From NCBI GenBank assembly GCA_022690815.1, contig JALCZJ010000008.1, positions 1-64,000 of the forward strand: a DNA stretch of 64,000 bases. Reading direction: 5' to 3'. Each line of letters begins with the position of its first letter. Positions within the stretch are counted from its first letter, which is position 1. The notes below the pieces were generated by a model. That model made no database searches. It was not told the origin of the DNA and saw only the letters and a list, made by a program, of their open reading frames with translations. This document shows, in pieces, positions 46,751-53,456 of this stretch. A program made the translations under genes and the position numbers. The DNA is from Ferrimicrobium sp. (GTDB lineage Bacteria > Actinomycetota > Acidimicrobiia > Acidimicrobiales > Acidimicrobiaceae).

Positions 46751-47278
46751 TTAACAGCCGACGGCACCGTCGATCAGCTCACGGATGAGGTCTGCGTGGC
46801 CGTTATGGCGCGCATACTCCTCGATGAGGTGGGTGAGGATCCAGCGTAACGTGACGAGATCACCGTTAAGAGGACTGCTACCAGTATCGTCGAGTGAGGC
46901 TGGTGCCATACGATCGTCGGCGAGGCGGCACTGCTCGTGAAAGATTGCGAGGTCGTGTGCAAAGGTTGATGCTTCGGCTTCGTCAAAATCGGCATCCGGG
47001 GAAGCTTCACTGCAAAAGATCCCCTCATCGCGTGGTGAACCGGTAAAGACGATGCTGGTCCAGTAATGTTCGACCTCACTGAGATGGCGAACTAAGCCAT
47101 GAAGCGAGAGTGAGGATGTCGGGATGGGACGTAGGTTGCACCGGGTGTCGTCGAGGCCCTCGCATTTGAGTTCTAGGGTCATGCGGTGATAGTGAAGCCA
47201 GCCCTCCAACATCTCACGCTCATTGGCTCCATACGATGGTTCGCTTCGCCTTGGGTCGATGAGGTCGTTGCTAGCCAT
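46751..47278 (-). CDS. DinB-superfamily DUF664 protein
   Basis: A 175-residue four-helix protein of the DinB/YfiT superfamily, DUF664 branch. The metal-ligand histidines are in LVRHLSEVEHYW and near the C-terminus (RWILTHLIEEYARHNGHADL). Relatives are thiol-dependent S-transferases, many using mycothiol or bacillithiol. I use the ATG at 47278, starting ASNDLIDPRRSEPSYG; the frame extends further but lacks a ribosome site. Confidence 0.82.
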   Translation of the reverse strand: MASNDLIDPRRSEPSYGANEREMLEGWLHYHRMTLELKCEGLDDTRCNLRPIPTSSLSLHGLVRHLSEVEHYWTSIVFTGSPRDEGIFCSEASPDADFDEAEASTFAHDLAIFHEQCRLADDRMAPASLDDTGSSPLNGDLVTLRWILTHLIEEYARHNGHADLIRELIDGAVGC

Positions 47279-47398
47279 GGCTTTCACCCCCAGTGATAGA
47301 TCCGAGCACCATGCTAATCGACTAAAGGCCAACAAGATGAGGTGACGCGTGATCGGCGCTGAGACGTGTACGAGTTCGGCAAAGCCACGATGGGTTCG

Positions 47399-48049
47399 TT
47401 ACAGTTTTGCCGCCGCCTTGAGGAGCTGGTTCATGGTCGAAACCGGGGCGGTGTTCTGATACGTGATGACGCCGTCTCGGTTTACGAGGAGGTAGTAGTC
47501 GGGAATCCCGGCCGGATCATAGCGACGACTCAGCCCTGAGCTCGCAAGCCCAAAGGTCCACTGTCGATTCCGAAATGACGTCTGGGCGGCACTCCTGGCA
47601 AAGGCTAGCAGACTGGCATCGGCTCCTTTTGCTGGCCCAAAGTCTCCCCAAAGCCCGAGGGCAAGTACGGAAACATGATCACGACCGAGAATAGGTAATT
47701 CTCGAGCAACGGCCGGGATACTGATCGCGCAGCTCGCACAGCCTCCGGCGATAAACCACACCATGATGGCATGACCGCGGTAGCTGCGCAACGCTACCGG
47801 TTGGTGAGCGAGGTTCATGAAGGTTCCATGCATAATGGAGGCGGCGCTCGGTTCATAGCTATCTGAGACGGTTACGCTCCGGTTATGGGTCAGCGTCGCC
47901 GTCAGCGAGGTTGCCTGCCTGCCTTTTGCGAGCTGGAGGCCGCCGATGATGGTCACGATGACGACCGCGAGCGTCAATCCGAGAATCAGGATGCGTCGCT
48001 TTGGCCTGGCGTGTCGGTTCATCGGGTCAACAGCTGGTGCTCGGGTCAT
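47399..48049 (-). CDS. membrane-anchored thioredoxin-like protein, CASC motif
   Basis: A 216-residue TlpA-type protein. A basic cytoplasmic N-terminus and one membrane helix (about 20-40, LILGLTLAVVIVTIIGGLQL) anchor a periplasm-side thioredoxin fold with the redox pair CASC (C104, C107) after VWFIAGG, and the later YYLLVNRDGVITYQNT strand and cis-Pro region. It is the last gene of a four-gene minus-strand operon and follows its paralogue by two bases. The two are only distantly alike outside the fold. Its role is presumably thiol transfer or metal binding outside the membrane; see the operon finding. Confidence 0.85.
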   Translation of the reverse strand: MTRAPAVDPMNRHARPKRRILILGLTLAVVIVTIIGGLQLAKGRQATSLTATLTHNRSVTVSDSYEPSAASIMHGTFMNLAHQPVALRSYRGHAIMVWFIAGGCASCAISIPAVARELPILGRDHVSVLALGLWGDFGPAKGADASLLAFARSAAQTSFRNRQWTFGLASSGLSRRYDPAGIPDYYLLVNRDGVITYQNTAPVSTMNQLLKAAAKL

Positions 48050-48051
48050 CC

Positions 48052-48717
48052 TTAGACTCCCTTCACTGCCTTTAGGAGTTGGGGCATGGTAGCCGACGGT
48101 GAGCTGTTGATGTAGGTGATCTTGCCCTCACGGTTGATGAGATAGTAGATATCGAGGTAACCAACCGGGTCATAGGCCTTTGAGAGTCCAAATGATGAGA
48201 CTCCAAAGGTCCAGTCGGGGTTGTGAAGTTCAGAGCCAGCAAGCGCCGTGGCAAAAGTCGACATGCTGGGGCCGGTTGACCCGAGGTCGTGGTACAGTTC
48301 GATCTCCTTGACCTTGACGCCAGCGGCTGCAAGGGTTGCCAGGTTCTTGGCCATCACCTTGGTTCCGGCTTGACACGATGAGCACCAGGTGGAGACGAAC
48401 CACAAAAGGGTTGGGCTTCCCTTGGTGGACGCGACGGTTTCGTGCTGGCCGCTCAGGGTTGTAAAGGTTCCGTTTGGAGTGGCTGATCCGACGGAGGGCA
48501 GCGGGTCAGCGGCACTTTGAGCCGTTGATTGTGGCGGCGTGCTCTGGCCATGGTGAAGGTTGGTTAACCCAACGGCTGCGAGGATGACAGCAACGACAGC
48601 GGCCCCGAGGCCGACGAAGAGACGAAGCTGGCGATTGTGCTGGCGTTGCTGATAGCGCTGTGCTCGTCTCGATGGCGGCTTTGCTCGATTTGGGGCTTCA
48701 TTGGTTGGTTTGTTCAC
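48052..48717 (-). CDS. membrane-anchored thioredoxin-like protein, CSSC motif
   Basis: A 221-residue protein with a basic, Gln-rich cytoplasmic segment, one membrane helix (about 34-53, FVGLGAAVVAVILAAVGLTN), a Ser/Gln/Pro linker and an AhpC/TlpA-like thioredoxin fold with CSSC (C112, C115) after LLWFVSTW. The conserved IYYLINREGKITYINSSPS stretch matches the downstream paralogue. The GTG at 48717 has GGAGG seven bases upstream and overlaps the stop of the upstream membrane-protein gene by four bases. It is probably a periplasmic reductant or metal-thiol carrier working with the two membrane proteins. Confidence 0.87.
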   Translation of the reverse strand: MNKPTNEAPNRAKPPSRRAQRYQQRQHNRQLRLFVGLGAAVVAVILAAVGLTNLHHGQSTPPQSTAQSAADPLPSVGSATPNGTFTTLSGQHETVASTKGSPTLLWFVSTWCSSCQAGTKVMAKNLATLAAAGVKVKEIELYHDLGSTGPSMSTFATALAGSELHNPDWTFGVSSFGLSKAYDPVGYLDIYYLINREGKITYINSSPSATMPQLLKAVKGV

Positions 48718-49289
48718 TGGTGTACCTCCGAGATTGATGATTGCTGGTCGGTGACTGCGGCATCCGGGGCCGGAAGACGACAGGATGCACAACAGAAGCG
48801 ATGGGCGGACCACCAGAGAGAGATGAGCAAGATAGCAAGGCTCACCCCGAGAAACAGCGTCTCTTGGGTCGCAAAGAAGTGTTGGATGCCTCCGGTGGCG
48901 TTGTAGAGACCGAGGGAGGAGAAGCCGACAAAGGCCAGCAAGGTGGGGATGATCGGTGTGCAGCAAAGGAAACTGGGAACCAAGCTCGCAACGAAGGCAA
49001 TACCAGTGAGCGAGGTTGACCCAGCTGAGACGACATCGCGCATGGCGCTCACTTGCACCATCACGACCAGACCCATGGCGGTCCCAAGAACGATGCTCCA
49101 TCCTACGATGTAGGGGTCGAGATACGTCCAGTTTGAGAAGGCGATCTGTTGGGTGAAGTCAAAGGGTAGGAGCAACGAGTAGGCGAGCGCGAAGACCGTC
49201 GCGAGGCCAATCCACCCGAAGCGCCGACCGGGGCTTTTGACTACAAAGGCGATCGTGTCGCGAATCTGAATGATCTGACGTGTGAGCAT
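48714..49289 (-). CDS. membrane protein with paired cysteines (CCTP)
   Basis: A 191-residue protein with about four membrane helices. The sequence VPSFLCCTPIIPTLLAFVG places a vicinal pair C109-C110 inside a helix next to prolines, and the C-terminus carries FCCASC (C166, C167, C170). This is the cysteine plan expected of a membrane thiol relay or soft-metal transporter; I do not recognise a named family. It starts three bases after the stop of the MerT-like gene and overlaps the CSSC thioredoxin gene by GTGA. Confidence 0.75.
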   Translation of the reverse strand: MLTRQIIQIRDTIAFVVKSPGRRFGWIGLATVFALAYSLLLPFDFTQQIAFSNWTYLDPYIVGWSIVLGTAMGLVVMVQVSAMRDVVSAGSTSLTGIAFVASLVPSFLCCTPIIPTLLAFVGFSSLGLYNATGGIQHFFATQETLFLGVSLAILLISLWWSAHRFCCASCRLPAPDAAVTDQQSSISEVHQ

Positions 49290-49291
49290 GC

Positions 49292-49603
49292 TTACCAACC
49301 GGTCCGTTGGGTCTTTGGTGCCTGGAAAAGAGGAGTAGTGGTGGCATCGTGTACCGAGTGTGTGAGGCAAGCATGTGTGCCACAGTCGTTACGCCTCTTC
49401 TTCCTAGTGCGCCAACCGACAAGAACAGCCAATGCGATGAGGCCTAGGCCGACCCCGCCGAGCCAGGTAGCGCCAACGACTCCGAGGGCACCAACGATCA
49501 GCGGTCCTGCGCAACAAACGATAGGGGCGATGGCGCAAAGACCGACATAGCCCCATCCGGAGTGCTCTTCCTTGATCGCTGCTTGGTTCGATCGTTTCGA
49601 CAT
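49292..49603 (-). CDS. MerT/MerF-like small membrane protein
   Basis: A 103-residue protein with two predicted membrane helices. The first, GLCAIAPIVCCAGPLIVGAL, carries the vicinal pair C30-C31 followed by GP, like the Cys-Cys-x-Gly-Pro of MerT that passes Hg(II) through the membrane. The C-terminal cytoplasmic tail has C74, C79 and several His (CGTHACLTHSVH). It is the first gene of the four-gene operon, with a BlaI-type dyad 45 bases upstream. Assignment as mercury transporter is inferred from this motif and from merA 2.4 kb away. Confidence 0.7.
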   Translation of the reverse strand: MSKRSNQAAIKEEHSGWGYVGLCAIAPIVCCAGPLIVGALGVVGATWLGGVGLGLIALAVLVGWRTRKKRRNDCGTHACLTHSVHDATTTPLFQAPKTQRTGW

Positions 49604-49647
49604 TTGTGACACCCGCCTCTGCCAATGGGGTTGATTACCCACAATGA

Positions 49648-49665
49648 TACTACGTAAATGTAGTA
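49648..49665. promoter_or_regulatory. BlaI-type operator before the four-gene thiol operon
   Basis: TACTACGTAAATGTAGTA is a perfect 6-bp dyad (TACTAC at 49648-49653, GTAGTA at 49660-49665) with a 6-base core. It lies in the 64 bases between the M56 gene and the MerT-like gene, overlapping a possible -10 (TAGTAT on the complement). A similar dyad with the same spacing lies upstream of blaI at 51321-51338. Confidence 0.75.
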
Positions 49666-49667
49666 GT

Positions 49668-50678
49668 TCATGCAGTACGAGCGGATTTCGTGAAGCTCCA
49701 AGGTGCAGCCAGACGCCGCCAGCCCAGCACACCAAGGACCAGCGAGAGTACCAAAGCACAGCTGAACAGGGATGGGGAAAGAATTTGGTTGGCAGTGAGG
49801 ACACAGGAGGCGAGGGCGACCAGGGTCGAGGGTGCGATAACCGCGGCTCCCATCGCCAAGAGTTGTCCCCCAGGTGTTGGCGTCGGTTCCTGGAGGCGTC
49901 GGATGCGATAGCGCACGTCGTCGGGGGCTCCGAAATGCGCGTCCGCGAGTCTTGCTTGTCGAGTGACGACTTTGGCAAGCGCGGTCATGATGACGGGAGC
50001 ACCGATGATCCGTCGAGCTTCATGGTCGGCGGCAACCTCAAGCTCTCGTCGCAGGCCATTCCAGGCATTGCGAACCGGTGGAATGAACCAGTAGAGTGCA
50101 GCGATTCCTGAGGCGAGCTCTAGCAAGCGGGTGTGACCAAGACGCAGGTGTGCAGCTTCGTGTTCGAAGACGGCTTGGCGCTCTTGGTCACTCAAGAGCG
50201 CAAGGGTCCCTGTGGTCACCAGCGCTCGCGGATGCACCAGGCCGGCTGAGACGGCGTGGATGTCGTTGGAGCTGACGATGGCTACACCGCTGCCGAGTGG
50301 GGAGGAGTAGTGGCCGATCACCGTCATCTGCGCCAGATCGAGAGTCGCGTCTCGACGCCTTTGGTGCCCGATGAGCGCAACCCCAATCGGAATGATGACA
50401 GCGGCCGCGAGGAGATACCCACTCAAATCCCAGGGGGCGGCCCCGAGCCCGAGGGCACAGCCAAAGTCGGTGAGCTTGCGGTGGGCGGTGAGATCCACAA
50501 CCGAACCAACCGAACACAGAACCCAGGCAGCTGGTACGATCGCCCATCCAAGGAGCGACACGACAAAGCCGGTAGCGATCGCCTCGGGCGCGTTGATGAT
50601 GCGGCCGAGGCGTGTGAGTGCACTCGGCAAGATGGCCAAGACCCCAACCGCGATCGGACCTATGAGGAGCAGCGTCAT
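49668..50678 (-). CDS. M56-family membrane metalloprotease (BlaR1-like, no sensor domain)
   Basis: A 336-residue protein with several membrane helices and the zinc-protease motif FEHEAAHLRLGH (H173, E174, H177), with a likely third ligand Glu in RRELEVAADHEARR. In BlaR1 and MecR1 such a protease is activated by a signal and triggers cleavage of the BlaI repressor. Here the C-terminal penicillin-binding sensor domain is missing, so it must sense another cue or respond to a partner. It overlaps blaI by ATGA, confirming the pair. Confidence 0.9.
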   Translation of the reverse strand: MTLLLIGPIAVGVLAILPSALTRLGRIINAPEAIATGFVVSLLGWAIVPAAWVLCSVGSVVDLTAHRKLTDFGCALGLGAAPWDLSGYLLAAAVIIPIGVALIGHQRRRDATLDLAQMTVIGHYSSPLGSGVAIVSSNDIHAVSAGLVHPRALVTTGTLALLSDQERQAVFEHEAAHLRLGHTRLLELASGIAALYWFIPPVRNAWNGLRRELEVAADHEARRIIGAPVIMTALAKVVTRQARLADAHFGAPDDVRYRIRRLQEPTPTPGGQLLAMGAAVIAPSTLVALASCVLTANQILSPSLFSCALVLSLVLGVLGWRRLAAPWSFTKSARTA

Positions 50679-51055
50679 GATTCTTGCTGCCTTTCGATCA
50701 GCGCAGCGAGTTCGCCAAGGAGTGCCTCGTCGTGGATCTCGTCAACGAAGTACATCAGGACCCGACGTGGGTCCTGCGAAGCTGACAGGAGTCGGTCGAT
50801 TTCCTTGGCTGCGAGTCGGTCGATGCCCCCGATCACCGAGTAGCGGTGGACGCCATCATCGTTCGTGCGATGGACCAAGCCCTTCGCGACCAGGCGGTTC
50901 AAGATAGTCATGATGGTGGTGTAGGCGCGCCGTGGTTCGCTGAGTCCATCATGGACCTCGCGTCCGGTCAGCGGGCGTTGCTCTTTGAGCAGCACCTCCA
51001 TCACGCGCTCCTCGAGTTGACCAACCTTGGTGCCTGCGATCATCGTCCGTTTCAT
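50675..51055 (-). CDS. blaI: BlaI/MecI-family repressor
   Basis: A 126-residue winged-helix repressor: VGQLEERVMEVLLKEQRPLT, then AYTTIMTILNRLVAKGLVHR, followed by the C-terminal dimerisation region with the family-type cleavage segment (VLMYFVDEIHDE). I use the ATG at 51055, with GGAAGG eight bases upstream; longer starts add a few Lys/Arg codons. It is co-transcribed with the M56 protease and probably binds the two TACTAC-type dyads in this cluster, repressing its own promoter and the thiol operon until the protease is triggered. Confidence 0.92.
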   Translation of the reverse strand: MKRTMIAGTKVGQLEERVMEVLLKEQRPLTGREVHDGLSEPRRAYTTIMTILNRLVAKGLVHRTNDDGVHRYSVIGGIDRLAAKEIDRLLSASQDPRRVLMYFVDEIHDEALLGELAALIERQQES

Positions 51056-51263
51056 CGGCCTAGCCTTCCGCTTCTTGTCCACTCGTGTCCAGTTGGTGGG
51101 CGTGTTCTCGTCGCCCTACCTCAATGTCGCAGCTGTAGGCCCGGTCCCCACCGTGAGTACAGCATCGCCAATGCATCTTCGTCGATGGGGGCAATCTCTC
51201 GGTCAATCTGGCAACACGAGGACTCTATGACATGAGCTGCCCGTCGGAGTGATCCTTCGCGCT

Positions 51264-51328
51264 GTGCCTACCAACCGTGCTCACCAACCGTGCTCACCAA
51301 CCGTGCTCACCAACCGTGTCTACTAATA
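51264..51328. repeat. 13-bp tandem repeat array running into the blaI operator
   Basis: GTGCCTACCAACC (51264-51276) is followed by three perfect copies of GTGCTCACCAACC (51277-51289, 51290-51302, 51303-51315) and a diverged fifth unit GTGTCTACTAATA (51316-51328), which merges into the operator at 51321. Confidence 0.93.
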
Positions 51329-51338
51329 ATGTGTAGTA
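51321..51338. promoter_or_regulatory. BlaI-type operator upstream of blaI
   Basis: TACTAATAATGTGTAGTA is an 18-bp dyad with one arm (GTAGTA) identical to that of the 49648 site and the other one base different (TACTAA against TACTAC), with the same 6-base core length. The complement of 51335-51340 is TATACT, so a repressor here would cover the -10 and start site of the blaI promoter. Confidence 0.7.
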
Positions 51339-51430
51339 TAGCGTTGTCGGCGATGGCAATGATGGACACGCTTTTCTCTTTGTGCAGCCTTAGGCGTCTT
51401 GACGTCGTCAGCCGATCGGACTCGATGTGG

Positions 51431-51904
51431 TCACTGAGACACCATTGTGTGGATCAGACGCGAACGCGCTGTTCGCTCGCGGTGCTTGGTCGCCTCGGTT
51501 TGCGCCAACGCCGTGGGTATGAGGTGACAAACATTACCGGGTGGACAGTCGTCGACGTTGAGCTGCTCGGCGCGCGCAATCAATTCTCTCAGGGTCGCTA
51601 GTGCCTCGTTGAGCTTGGCGATCTTTTCTTGGTATTCGAGTGCACGCCCATTGAGCAGTGTAAGGACGTGTTGGCAGGGGACGACGCCAGCTCTGCGGTA
51701 GGCGAGGATTTCACGGATCTCCTTCAGTGAGAGTCCAGCTGATTGACTCGCCTTGACAAAGTTGATCTGCGCGATCGCCTCATCGGGGTAGTCGCGGTAA
51801 CCCTCTGGAGTCCGAGCCGGCGGCGAAAGCACGCCGATCTCTTCGTAGTAGCGGAGTGTCTTAACGGGTACGTGAGTGACCTTGGCAATCTGACCGATTC
51901 TCAT
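51431..51904 (-). CDS. merR: MerR-family metal-responsive regulator
   Basis: A 157-residue MerR protein: the N-terminal winged helix (MRIGQIAKVTHVPVKTLRYY then EEIGVLSPPARTPEGYRDYP) is followed by a long dimerisation helix and a C-terminal Cys motif. Cysteines C77, C120 and C126 stand where MerR-type sensors place their three Hg(II)-binding thiols, although the last two are closer together (CPPGNVC) than in Tn501 MerR, resembling general heavy-metal-responsive members. It is divergent from merA with a shared dyad between. TAGACT lies seven bases before the ATG, so its mRNA is probably leaderless. Confidence 0.88.
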   Translation of the reverse strand: MRIGQIAKVTHVPVKTLRYYEEIGVLSPPARTPEGYRDYPDEAIAQINFVKASQSAGLSLKEIREILAYRRAGVVPCQHVLTLLNGRALEYQEKIAKLNEALATLRELIARAEQLNVDDCPPGNVCHLIPTALAQTEATKHRERTARSRLIHTMVSQ

Positions 51905-51921
51905 CAATCACAGTCTAGATG

Positions 51922-51945
51922 AACCGTCCAGCCAACTGGAGGGTT
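51922..51945. promoter_or_regulatory. MerR-type operator between merR and merA
   Basis: AACCGTCCAG (51922-51931) and CTGGAGGGTT (51936-51945) form a dyad with a 4-base core and a single mismatch per arm. This shape is that of MerR-family operators lying in a stretched promoter spacer. It sits 18 bases upstream of the merR start and 69 bases upstream of merA. Confidence 0.7.
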
Positions 51946-52013
51946 TTTACGCTGAGGGTTTGATGGTTCGACACATCTGTCCCAGAGGTGTCGATGAAGA
52001 AGGAGGAAGTCAG

Positions 52014-53456
52014 ATGAATTCGACAGACCAAGGATCAATCGTTTGTGATCTTGCGGTGATTGGGTCGGGTAGCGCTGCCTTCGCGACGGCGATTCGAGCG
52101 GTTGGCCTCAAGGCAACGGTCGTGCTCATCGAGGAGAACTCGATTGGGGGTACCTGCGTGAACGTCGGTTGTGTGCCCTCCAAGGCGTTGCTTGCAGCCG
52201 CCGAGGCCCGTTACCGTGCGATGGATCAGCCGTTCCCCGGCATTCACACCGCGGCTGGTCCTGTCGCGATGGATGAGCTGATCGAGGGCAAGCGAGCACT
52301 CGTTGACCAGTTGCGGCGAGACAAATATGAGGACCTCGCAGCGGCCTATGGCTTTACGGTCATCCACGGCCGAGCCCAGTTTGTTGAGTCAGGGGCTCTC
52401 ATGGTCAACTTCGAGGACGCCCGAGGAGTGCGCGAGCGCGAAGTGGTGGCGACCAAGATCGTGATCGCCACCGGGGCGACTCCCACGGTCCCGCCCATTT
52501 TAGGCCTTGATGCTGTCCCGTTTCTCACGTCGACGACCGCGATGGAGCTCCAAGCCGTGCCGGAGCACCTGCTGGTGATTGGAGCGAACGCGGTCGGTTT
52601 AGAGCAGGCCCAGCTCTTTGCCCACCTTGGCGCATCGGTGACCATTCTCGAGGCTCGTGATCGGATTGCACCGTTCGAGGAGCCCGAGATATCGGCAGCA
52701 CTCGCCAAGATCCTTGGCGACGAGGGCATTGCGGTGGTAACGGCGGCGACGATAACCCAGATCAACAGCCACCAGGGCAGGATCACTCTCACATATGAGC
52801 GAGGGGCCTCGGCGCACGAGCTCGAAGGCGATGCATTGCTGGTGGCGACGGGACGTCGACCAAACACCCAGAAGCTAGGGCTGGCACACGTTGGCGTTGA
52901 AGTCGGGACTCAGGGAGAGGTGATTGTCGATGAGCAACTGCAAACGACCAATCCACGGATTTGGGCCGCAGGTGACGTGACGGGTGCCCCCCAGTTTGTC
53001 TACGTCGCCGGTCTCCACGGTACGATCGTGGCCGACAATGCTTTGCTCGATGCCGGACGCAGCATCGACTATCGCACGTTGCCGAGAGTGACCTTCACCG
53101 CGCCGCAGATCGCGTCGGTCGGTTTGACCGACGAGGGAGCTGTTGCGGCTGGGTATCGGTGTGACTGTCGGGTAGTCGAACTCAGTGCCGTAGCTCGTGC
53201 GCTCGTGAATCGCGACACGAGGGGCCTCGTGAAAATTGTGGCTGACCAGGCGACCAACAAGGTGTTAGGCATTCATCTGCTCGCCGACGGCGCTGGGGAT
53301 GCCATCCTCGCCGGGGTCTATGCACTCGAGGCTAACTTTACGGTCGAACAACTCGCGACGACTTGGGCTCCCTATCTCACGATGGCCGAGGCGATTCGTC
53401 TCGGGGCGCAGTCGTTCACCCGCGATGTTGGCATGCTTTCTTGCTGCGCCTCCTGA
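52014..53456 (+). CDS. merA: mercuric reductase
   Basis: MerA is a cytosolic flavoenzyme that reduces Hg(II) to volatile Hg(0) with NADPH. The 480-residue protein has the FAD site AVIGSGSAAFATAIRAV, the redox-active GGTCVNVGCVPSK (C48, C53), and the diagnostic C-terminal vicinal pair in MLSCCAS (C477, C478) that receives Hg(II). This pair separates it from dihydrolipoamide dehydrogenase. The N-terminal metal-binding domain found in many MerA proteins is absent. I use the ATG at 52014 with AAGGAGG upstream rather than the in-frame ATG at 51960. It is transcribed away from merR. Confidence 0.94.
   Translation: MNSTDQGSIVCDLAVIGSGSAAFATAIRAVGLKATVVLIEENSIGGTCVNVGCVPSKALLAAAEARYRAMDQPFPGIHTAAGPVAMDELIEGKRALVDQLRRDKYEDLAAAYGFTVIHGRAQFVESGALMVNFEDARGVREREVVATKIVIATGATPTVPPILGLDAVPFLTSTTAMELQAVPEHLLVIGANAVGLEQAQLFAHLGASVTILEARDRIAPFEEPEISAALAKILGDEGIAVVTAATITQINSHQGRITLTYERGASAHELEGDALLVATGRRPNTQKLGLAHVGVEVGTQGEVIVDEQLQTTNPRIWAAGDVTGAPQFVYVAGLHGTIVADNALLDAGRSIDYRTLPRVTFTAPQIASVGLTDEGAVAAGYRCDCRVVELSAVARALVNRDTRGLVKIVADQATNKVLGIHLLADGAGDAILAGVYALEANFTVEQLATTWAPYLTMAEAIRLGAQSFTRDVGMLSCCAS

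Follow-up and report, generated by a model that had tools for sequence, protein, structure and literature searches.

Within a 64,000-nucleotide stretch of a Ferrimicrobium sp. contig (JALCZJ010000008.1, positions 1 to 64,000; the whole stretch is referred to here as the window), genes for a BlaI-type repressor and an M56 membrane metalloprotease lie between a merR-merA pair and four genes encoding a MerT-like protein, a second membrane protein (Mem2) and two thioredoxin-fold proteins (trx1 and trx2). What does a repressor-protease pair of the kind known from beta-lactam resistance do beside a mercuric reductase? We propose, with a probability of roughly 0.6, that this is a variant mer locus, in which a MerP-less module for Hg(II) uptake or thiol relay is controlled by a cysteine-based M56 sensor acting through BlaI, with MerR controlling merA. 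The gene order, the linkage to mer and the predicted operators are established here; the sensing and the carriage of Hg(II) we infer.

All eight genes were confirmed at the positions given by an earlier note on this sequence (Table 1), in a genome of 2.54 Mb that is 98% complete. The blaI and M56 genes overlap by 4 bp, as do mem2 and trx1, and gaps of 2 bp separate the merT-like gene from mem2 and trx1 from trx2; the 64-bp gap between the M56 and merT-like genes holds a perfect TACTAC-N6-GTAGTA palindrome. Upstream of blaI are merR, on the minus strand, and the divergent merA, on the plus strand.

The company of the four genes with blaI-M56 and/or mer genes elsewhere had been set beforehand as a test of the proposal, and the order blaI-M56-merT-mem2-trx was found to recur in many of the 31 loci mapped, with conserved boxes and associated MerA. 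Among 147 related genomes, a strong Mem2 match (E ≤1e-10) was detected in 19 and a weak one in 4 (G092, G095, G116 and G120, counted as negative in the co-occurrence table), while MerA exceeded its cut-off in 34, namely 16 of the 19 Mem2-bearing genomes vs 18 of the 128 others (Fisher 1.4e-9, a value that is inexact as the genomes are related). As for the exceptions, in G131 merA is broken by a run of N about 2 kb from the module, and G026 and G035 are 76% and 82% complete, respectively. Of the mapped loci, 15 of 31 had a MerA-like gene (at least 48% identity) in the fetched stretch. A pattern scan of genome contigs, sensitive to close relatives alone, detected 17 loci, each of them in a metagenome-assembled actinobacterium. 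Phylum-wide, Mem2 was found in 2 of 396 genomes, including the window's own; in G203 (locus L106), a perfect box shares a 7.6-kb contig with an M56 gene and two genes for thioredoxin folds, and no blaI or merT match was found on this contig. Rows L046 (which duplicates the match of L045), L063 (on the contig of L044) and L022-L025 (E >1e-4) were dropped, and the paralogues L069, L070, L072 and L073 were kept separate.

BlaI/M56 control is one wiring among several. In L045, L059 and L060 the arrangement is merR / merA-(merT)-mem2-trx, with no blaI-M56 in the fetched stretch, and in L050 an ArsR-type gene precedes the module. On the Mem2 tree, from which L076 was left out as it is cut by the contig end, the blaI-positive label changes at least 6 times, with well-supported branches forcing only one change. 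It is suggested that regulators were swapped around a stable mer link. As side observations, in L049 (3299-4648) and L058 (5035-6369, by Pfam scan only) the M56 and merT-like genes are separated by a second pyridine-nucleotide disulfide oxidoreductase gene of opposite orientation, and in L109 (G035) blaI-M56-merT is followed by a gene for 346 aa (119-1159), which is not mem2.

Which genes, then, would BlaI control? Palindromes of the TACTAC/GTAGTA kind are assigned to the known BlaI operator type, and it is by analogy with this type that BlaI would bind the boxes described here. In the whole genome the perfect palindrome occurs once, before the merT-like gene, and a match with one mismatch also occurs once, upstream of blaI. 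The chance expectation in 2.54 Mb, for an assumed composition of 58% GC, is about 0.07 perfect and about 2.7 one-mismatch sites, so that the position of a site, and not the number of sites, is the evidence. Genome-wide counts were accordingly rejected as stand-alone proof, sites with ≤2 mismatches not being enriched (17 vs 88 for a reversed control pattern); the claim of a predicted BlaI operator is carried by position and conservation. In all 17 tested loci with blaI (the window and 16 others), a box with ≤3 mismatches was found in the 300 bp before the merT-like gene, with 0 mismatches in 5 loci, 1 in 3, 2 in 7 and 3 in 2. The GTAGTA half is intact in every one of these boxes and the spacers differ between loci, and an equally good box turned up in a fraction of 0.005-0.090 of random stretches from the locus concerned. 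On the other hand, the 10 tested loci without blaI in the fetched stretch had no such box before the merT-like gene (found in 4) or before mem2 (found in 10). The test left out L055 (near-identical to L054), L076 and L106, and kept short contigs such as L064.

A box with ≤3 mismatches was also present just before blaI in 13 of the 17 loci; none was found there in L057, L068 and L109, and the window's own lies outside the tested stretch, 265 bp upstream. Thus BlaI/M56 probably also controls its own genes. The corresponding distance is about 50-60 bp in L044, L061, L062 and L064, and in the window four to five 13-bp tandem repeats (GTGCTCACCAACC on the plus strand) occupy 51264-51328, between the upstream box and blaI, as if an insert had grown there. 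Boxes with 3-4 mismatches seemingly upstream of merA in L045, the window and other loci were discarded, being merR coding sequence (the codons of RYYEEIG). For its part, merA has its own MerR-type operator, AACCCTCCAG-N4-CTGGACGGTT, which is clear in the corresponding gaps of L044, L061 and L062 and weaker in L045, L059 and L060. With BlaI-type boxes at the module and a MerR-type operator at merA, the two regulators therefore seem to divide the locus, MerR for merA and BlaI/M56 for the module. A sigma-70 scan gave 0 promoters vs 1.9 expected and is uninformative.

The next question is what the pair would sense. The BlaI of the window has no cysteine, as is the case in 11 of the 18 BlaI rows, hence sensing must lie elsewhere, most simply in the M56 protein. 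Direct metal sensing in the manner of CopY/TcrY, BlaI-family repressors with a C-terminal cysteine hook, was rejected for the window on this ground and on the TIGR02698 score (18.9 vs 121.95 bits). The lack of a penicillin-binding domain in the M56 protein, claimed in the earlier note, was borne out by the domain search, in which the M56/M48 matches end at residue 221 and nothing further matches. The note had also stated that no beta-lactamase is near, which holds for class A (PF13354, 0 matches in the genome), the sole class searched. The active-site residues H173, E174 and H177 are invariant in 10 rows, and C55, C74, C292 and C307 are present in all 17 distinct merT-linked M56 proteins, as well as in the mem2-linked M56 of L106, from another lineage. 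Among 12 distinct M56 proteins that have no merT-like match nearby, 11 keep C74 and 11 keep C307, whereas C55 is present in 1 (L087, where the alignment is doubtful) and C292 in none. The merT-linked proteins of one alignment are only 32-51% identical to that of the window, yet the cysteines are invariant among them. A tree of 29 M56 proteins (32 before removal of identical rows) placed the merT-linked ones in a single clade with support 100/100. A PF05569 search for more controls was too insensitive, with matches in 2 of 60 genomes and known M56 genes of the same genus missed, and other controls were used.

The predicted M56 model (pLDDT 77.9, pTM 0.78) has helices at 2-27, 31-64, 83-117, 269-295 and 302-327, with the protease domain between the third and the fourth. 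Basic residues, counted in segments whose boundaries were set by hand, number 2 in 21-32, 19 in 104-268 and 4 in 321-336, with 2 in the loop 57-83 and 0 in 296-301. By the positive-inside rule, this distribution predicts all four cysteines to be near the outer face, with C74 in the loop outside the membrane and C55, C292 and C307 close to where helices end on that side. The structures that fitted best were cryo-EM ones of BlaR1 (Z 11.6; 212 residues; rmsd 6.2), and where BlaR1 has its sensor domain the window's protein has a short loop followed by one final helix. The outer loop EL1 of BlaR1 (56-96), which juts out from helices 2 and 3, is linked to signalling according to the structural report (PMC9834060). 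The earlier note had supposed that the pair senses damage; the conserved cysteines point to direct sensing of thiols or soft metals over sensing of general damage.

Could the pair stand upstream by chance, serving cell-envelope or energy stress, the role of the mycobacterial BlaI/M56 pair, with no control over the mer module? Elsewhere in the order, blaI does have M56 neighbors that lack a penicillin-binding domain. However, the contrast between 17 of 17 and 0 of 10 loci in the box before the merT-like gene, together with the two invariant cysteines that set the merT-linked clade apart, makes this explanation very improbable.

Regarding the module itself, the label MerT-like given in the earlier note stands for the vicinal cysteines of helix 1 and not for family membership: C30 and C31, together with C79, are kept in 22 of 22 rows, but the PF02411 score of 14.1 bits is far under the cut-off of 32.9, and no MerT over this cut-off was found in any of the 19 Mem2-bearing genomes. 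Mem2 had no Pfam or NCBIfam match. Of its motifs proposed before, the vicinal pair of CCTP (C109 and C110) is conserved in 31 of 32 rows, whereas FCCASC is kept only in its last cysteine, C170 (also 31 of 32, the exception being L076, which ends at the contig edge), and was rejected as a functional motif save for this residue. Comparison of the Mem2 fold with 34 chains (VIA look-up) gave Z ≤5.4, all with unrelated helical chains, and searching PDB sequences with a profile yielded a single chance match (E 0.88). The two thioredoxin folds are predicted to be anchored, on the evidence of a hydrophobic segment that follows the basic N-terminus; the CxxC cysteines are present in 27 of 27 rows for trx1 and in 19 of 20 for trx2, the remaining row being truncated. 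The trx1 protein scores 26.1 bits for PF00578 (AhpC-TSA; cut-off 26), and its nearest matches include the ResA model (27.2 bits, cut-off 170) and MPT53/ResA structures; trx2 scores 18 bits for PF08534, under cut-off, and all ResA/DsbE/TlpA NCBIfam scores are under cut-off. Each of the four alignments includes one identical pair, L054/L055. A gene for a mycothiol-S-transferase (MST, PF04978, 149.6 bits) was observed downstream of trx2 at 46751-47335, and L044, L061 and L062 likewise have an MST gene close to the module.

A tblastn search of plasmids with Mem2 retrieved two Halorussus records (E 8e-5) and Acidiphilium multivorum pACMV1 (E 4e-3), and the pACMV1 relative as query added another Acidiphilium plasmid and one from Acidithiobacillus ferrooxidans. 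These relatives are annotated as "hypothetical protein", and merA is within 3 kb in 5 of 5 records, with merB also present in both from Halorussus. The three proteobacterial records have a gene annotated as a redoxin immediately in front of mem2. In Halorussus vallis this place is taken by a fusion of C2H2 zinc fingers, an AhpC-TSA thioredoxin fold (CPSC) and DUF3105 (L099:4536-5987), located in the merAB locus between an ArsR/CC-helix pair and Mem2. The H. aquaticus gene before mem2 has the same annotation and length as that of H. vallis, and a redoxin type may be assumed for it from this twin. H. vallis also encodes a protein of 79 aa without a Pfam match which, having VVCC in the first helix, resembles the MerT-like protein to some degree. 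In a profile alignment the two Mem2 groups match each other (hhalign 98.8%, 156 columns, E 1.3e-16 for a single comparison), and they have the CC[TS]P helix in common; trx1 matches both redoxins, with 28% and 26% identity. Since all five plasmid relatives are near merA with a redoxin-type gene before them, the thioredoxin-Mem2 pair, of which no description was found, appears as a wider mer companion; it looks like the older and wider element, with BlaI/M56 control as a local addition.

The coordinates of all features are collected in Table 1.

Table 1. Genes and predicted operators of the mer-type locus in the window
Feature	Position	Strand	Description	Context or family score
blaI	50675..51055	-	BlaI/MecI-type repressor, 126 aa, 0 Cys	PF03965 64.5 bits (cut-off 22.6)
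M56 gene	49668..50678	-	BlaR1-type membrane metalloprotease, HEAAH, Cys 55/74/292/307	PF05569 39.8 bits (cut-off 31)
merT-like	49292..49603	-	MerT/MerF-like small membrane protein, Cys 30-31 in helix 1, C79	
mem2	48714..49289	-	membrane protein, CC[TS]P within helix, conserved C170	
trx1	48052..48717	-	TlpA/ResA-like thioredoxin fold, N-terminal hydrophobic anchor, CSSC	
trx2	47399..48049	-	thioredoxin fold, N-terminal hydrophobic anchor, CASC	
merR	51431..51904	-	metal-type MerR regulator, Cys 77/120/126	PF13411 70.2 bits
merA	52014..53456	+	mercuric reductase, redox pair C48/C53, C-terminal CC	TIGR02053 557.4 bits (cut-off 454.45)
Predicted BlaI-type operator	49648..49665		perfect palindrome TACTAC-N6-GTAGTA	between M56 and merT-like genes
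Possible second BlaI-type operator	51321..51338		one mismatch	265 bp upstream of blaI
Predicted MerR-type operator	51922..51945		AACCCTCCAG-N4-CTGGACGGTT (minus-strand reading)	merR-merA gap

The MerA of the window exceeds the curated TIGR02053 cut-off, and its C48/C53 pair is present in 15 of 15 rows and C477/C478 in 14 of 15. The MerR protein, with C77, C120 and C126 in 7 of 7 rows, scores nearly alike with the CueR (80.1 bits), CadR/PbrR (79.7) and MerR models (TIGR02051, 76.8, cut-off 150.85), all under cut-off. These scores would suit a MerR that senses Cd, Pb or Cu, with the locus responding to a different soft metal (Cu, Ag or Cd) or to acid or oxidative stress, and MerA and the module being linked but receiving separate inputs; a sulfocyanin gene beside a mem2 paralogue in L069 fits the same idea. 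With MerA over its curated cut-off, MerA and Mem2 co-occurring and merB-merA standing beside the haloarchaeal copies, we regard this as quite improbable.

The earlier note had further proposed that thioredoxin-like proteins replace MerP. In favor of it, no MerP over the TIGR02052 cut-off, which may be strict for this phylum, was found in the 19 Mem2-bearing genomes, and a redoxin-type gene precedes the plasmid relatives of Mem2; against it, sub-threshold matches of the HMA type (to the MerP model) were present in 13 of the 19, in the window's genome on another contig. The frames that hold these matches are short, of P-type-ATPase size or, in two cases, about as long as MerA, and Mem2-bearing genomes may have a divergent MerP.

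Is the module, then, a carrier of metal or a relay of electrons? As an alternative to carriage, Mem2 could be a membrane electron carrier, in analogy to CcdA and MauE, that keeps the two outer thioredoxins reduced, which in turn repair extracytoplasmic thiols blocked by Hg(II), Cu or oxidants, MerA being a neighbor under the same selection. An electron relay of this kind through Mem2 is equally physical as the carriage of Hg(II), and trx1 has relatives of the TlpA/ResA type. It is somewhat favored by L069 (761-7543, G033), which contains blaI-M56, two redoxins and a Mem2 paralogue along with an Lgt-like gene and a sulfocyanin (SoxE) gene; L070 and L073 are similar to it by size and mem2 in partial scans. 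However, a merT-like CC protein accompanies Mem2 in 22 of the 28 non-paralogue rows, and all five plasmid records have Mem2 near merA. We consider the relay as the sole function rather unlikely.

Returning to the variant mer locus, several observations weigh against it. No MerA-like gene was found in the fetched stretch of 16 of the 31 mapped loci (four paralogues and several short contigs among them), which also speaks for a relay. No merA was found in the fetched 12 kb of L069 either, which indicates that the redoxin-mem2 pair can serve something besides mercury, L069 being a possible non-mercury sister system under BlaI/M56, and the pair may act more generally on thiols or copper. G035 and G039 carry only a distant Mem2 paralogue, and without both of them the MerA count becomes 15 of 17; in G039, MerA is on the mem2 contig of L073, about 9.6 kb away and outside the fetched 9 kb. 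No merT-like gene was found in L048, L050, L060, L067, L071 and L075. L076, a 4-kb contig with no blaI, has two tandem one-mismatch boxes (2524-2562) before trx2-merT-mem2. As the merT-linked M56 proteins form a single clade, their two extra cysteines may have arisen once, and one ancestral gain could explain the correlation with merT. The outer loop of M56 holds two basic residues and is poorly modelled, Foldseek alone gave no M56 match at E ≤0.001 (BlaR1 at E 0.055), and the Mem2 model is poor (pLDDT 68.6, pTM 0.46). It was also observed that merA in L076 is on the strand opposite to trx2-merT-mem2.

How does the locus compare with known systems? Two surveys list MerP, T, C, E, F, G, B, D and R as mer proteins (PMC3466566, PMC8261052), and further papers name merP/merT sets, one of the papers with thioredoxin and mer changes in the proteome (PMC9948709, PMC7760498, PMC10433974). 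The window resembles the MerR-MerT-MerP-MerA operon in the MerR-type regulator divergent from a true MerA and in a small membrane protein with a vicinal cysteine pair in helix 1, but its module has no MerP or MerT over cut-offs, and it adds Mem2, two thioredoxin folds and a second regulator, BlaI/M56. With BlaI-BlaR1 and MecI-MecR1 it shares a BlaI-family repressor gene overlapping an M56 gene, a palindromic box before the target operon and a BlaR1-like protease scaffold; however, its M56 protein has four predicted outer-face cysteines and no penicillin-binding sensor, and the target is a mer-type module in a genome with no class A beta-lactamase. The mycobacterial BlaI Rv1846c, whose partner Rv1845c is an M56 protein without a sensor domain, is a similar actinobacterial pair with a different regulon. 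The thioredoxin-fold proteins are like TlpA/ResA/DsbE in having a CxxC domain behind a predicted N-terminal anchor, but the trx1 match is weak and trx1/trx2 are encoded as a pair with Mem2 beside merA. The mer loci of Acidiphilium, Acidithiobacillus and Halorussus likewise have a redoxin-mem2 pair beside merA and the CC[TS]P helix, and that of H. vallis also a small CC-helix protein; they differ in having one redoxin, before mem2, and MerR-type or ArsR regulators, and no BlaI/M56 was found in the regions seen of these loci.

Combining these elements, the outer CxxC thioredoxin domains would take Hg(II) or other thiophilic species, in place of MerP, and hand Hg(II), or electrons for its release, to the MerT-like protein and Mem2 at their CC pairs; through these two proteins Hg(II) would reach MerA and be reduced to Hg(0). 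The M56 protein would be the outside sensor: by analogy with BlaR1, a thiophilic metal or the oxidation of thiols at its outer-face cysteines would activate the cytoplasmic protease, which would cleave BlaI and so free the merT-mem2-trx1-trx2 operon, probably along with blaI-M56, while MerR would sense Hg(II) inside the cell and drive merA. In its most specific form, which we put forward tentatively and with some doubt, M56 would be a BlaR1-type receptor in which four outer-face cysteines replace the penicillin-binding domain, reading Hg(II) or thiol state and destroying BlaI, and the thioredoxin-fold/Mem2 set would be a MerP-free entry route for Hg(II) common to actinobacteria, acidophilic proteobacteria and haloarchaea.

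The gene set is apparently undescribed, as a variant of the mer kind and not a member of the beta-lactam BlaR1 system; the portions of the open-access literature that were consulted hold no description of a BlaI-switched thioredoxin/Mem2 mer arrangement. Thioredoxins have reportedly been tied to Hg(II) tolerance in Thermus, by Norambuena et al. in 2018. To our knowledge, how Hg(II) reaches MerA without MerP/MerT is an open point of the mer field, and a concrete, recurring gene set for such delivery, from actinobacteria to haloarchaea, can now be named. Microbial mercury reduction at mining and saline sites is also of practical interest. If true, the proposal would widen BlaR1-type signalling from antibiotics to the sensing of soft metals and thiols, with specific residues and operators.

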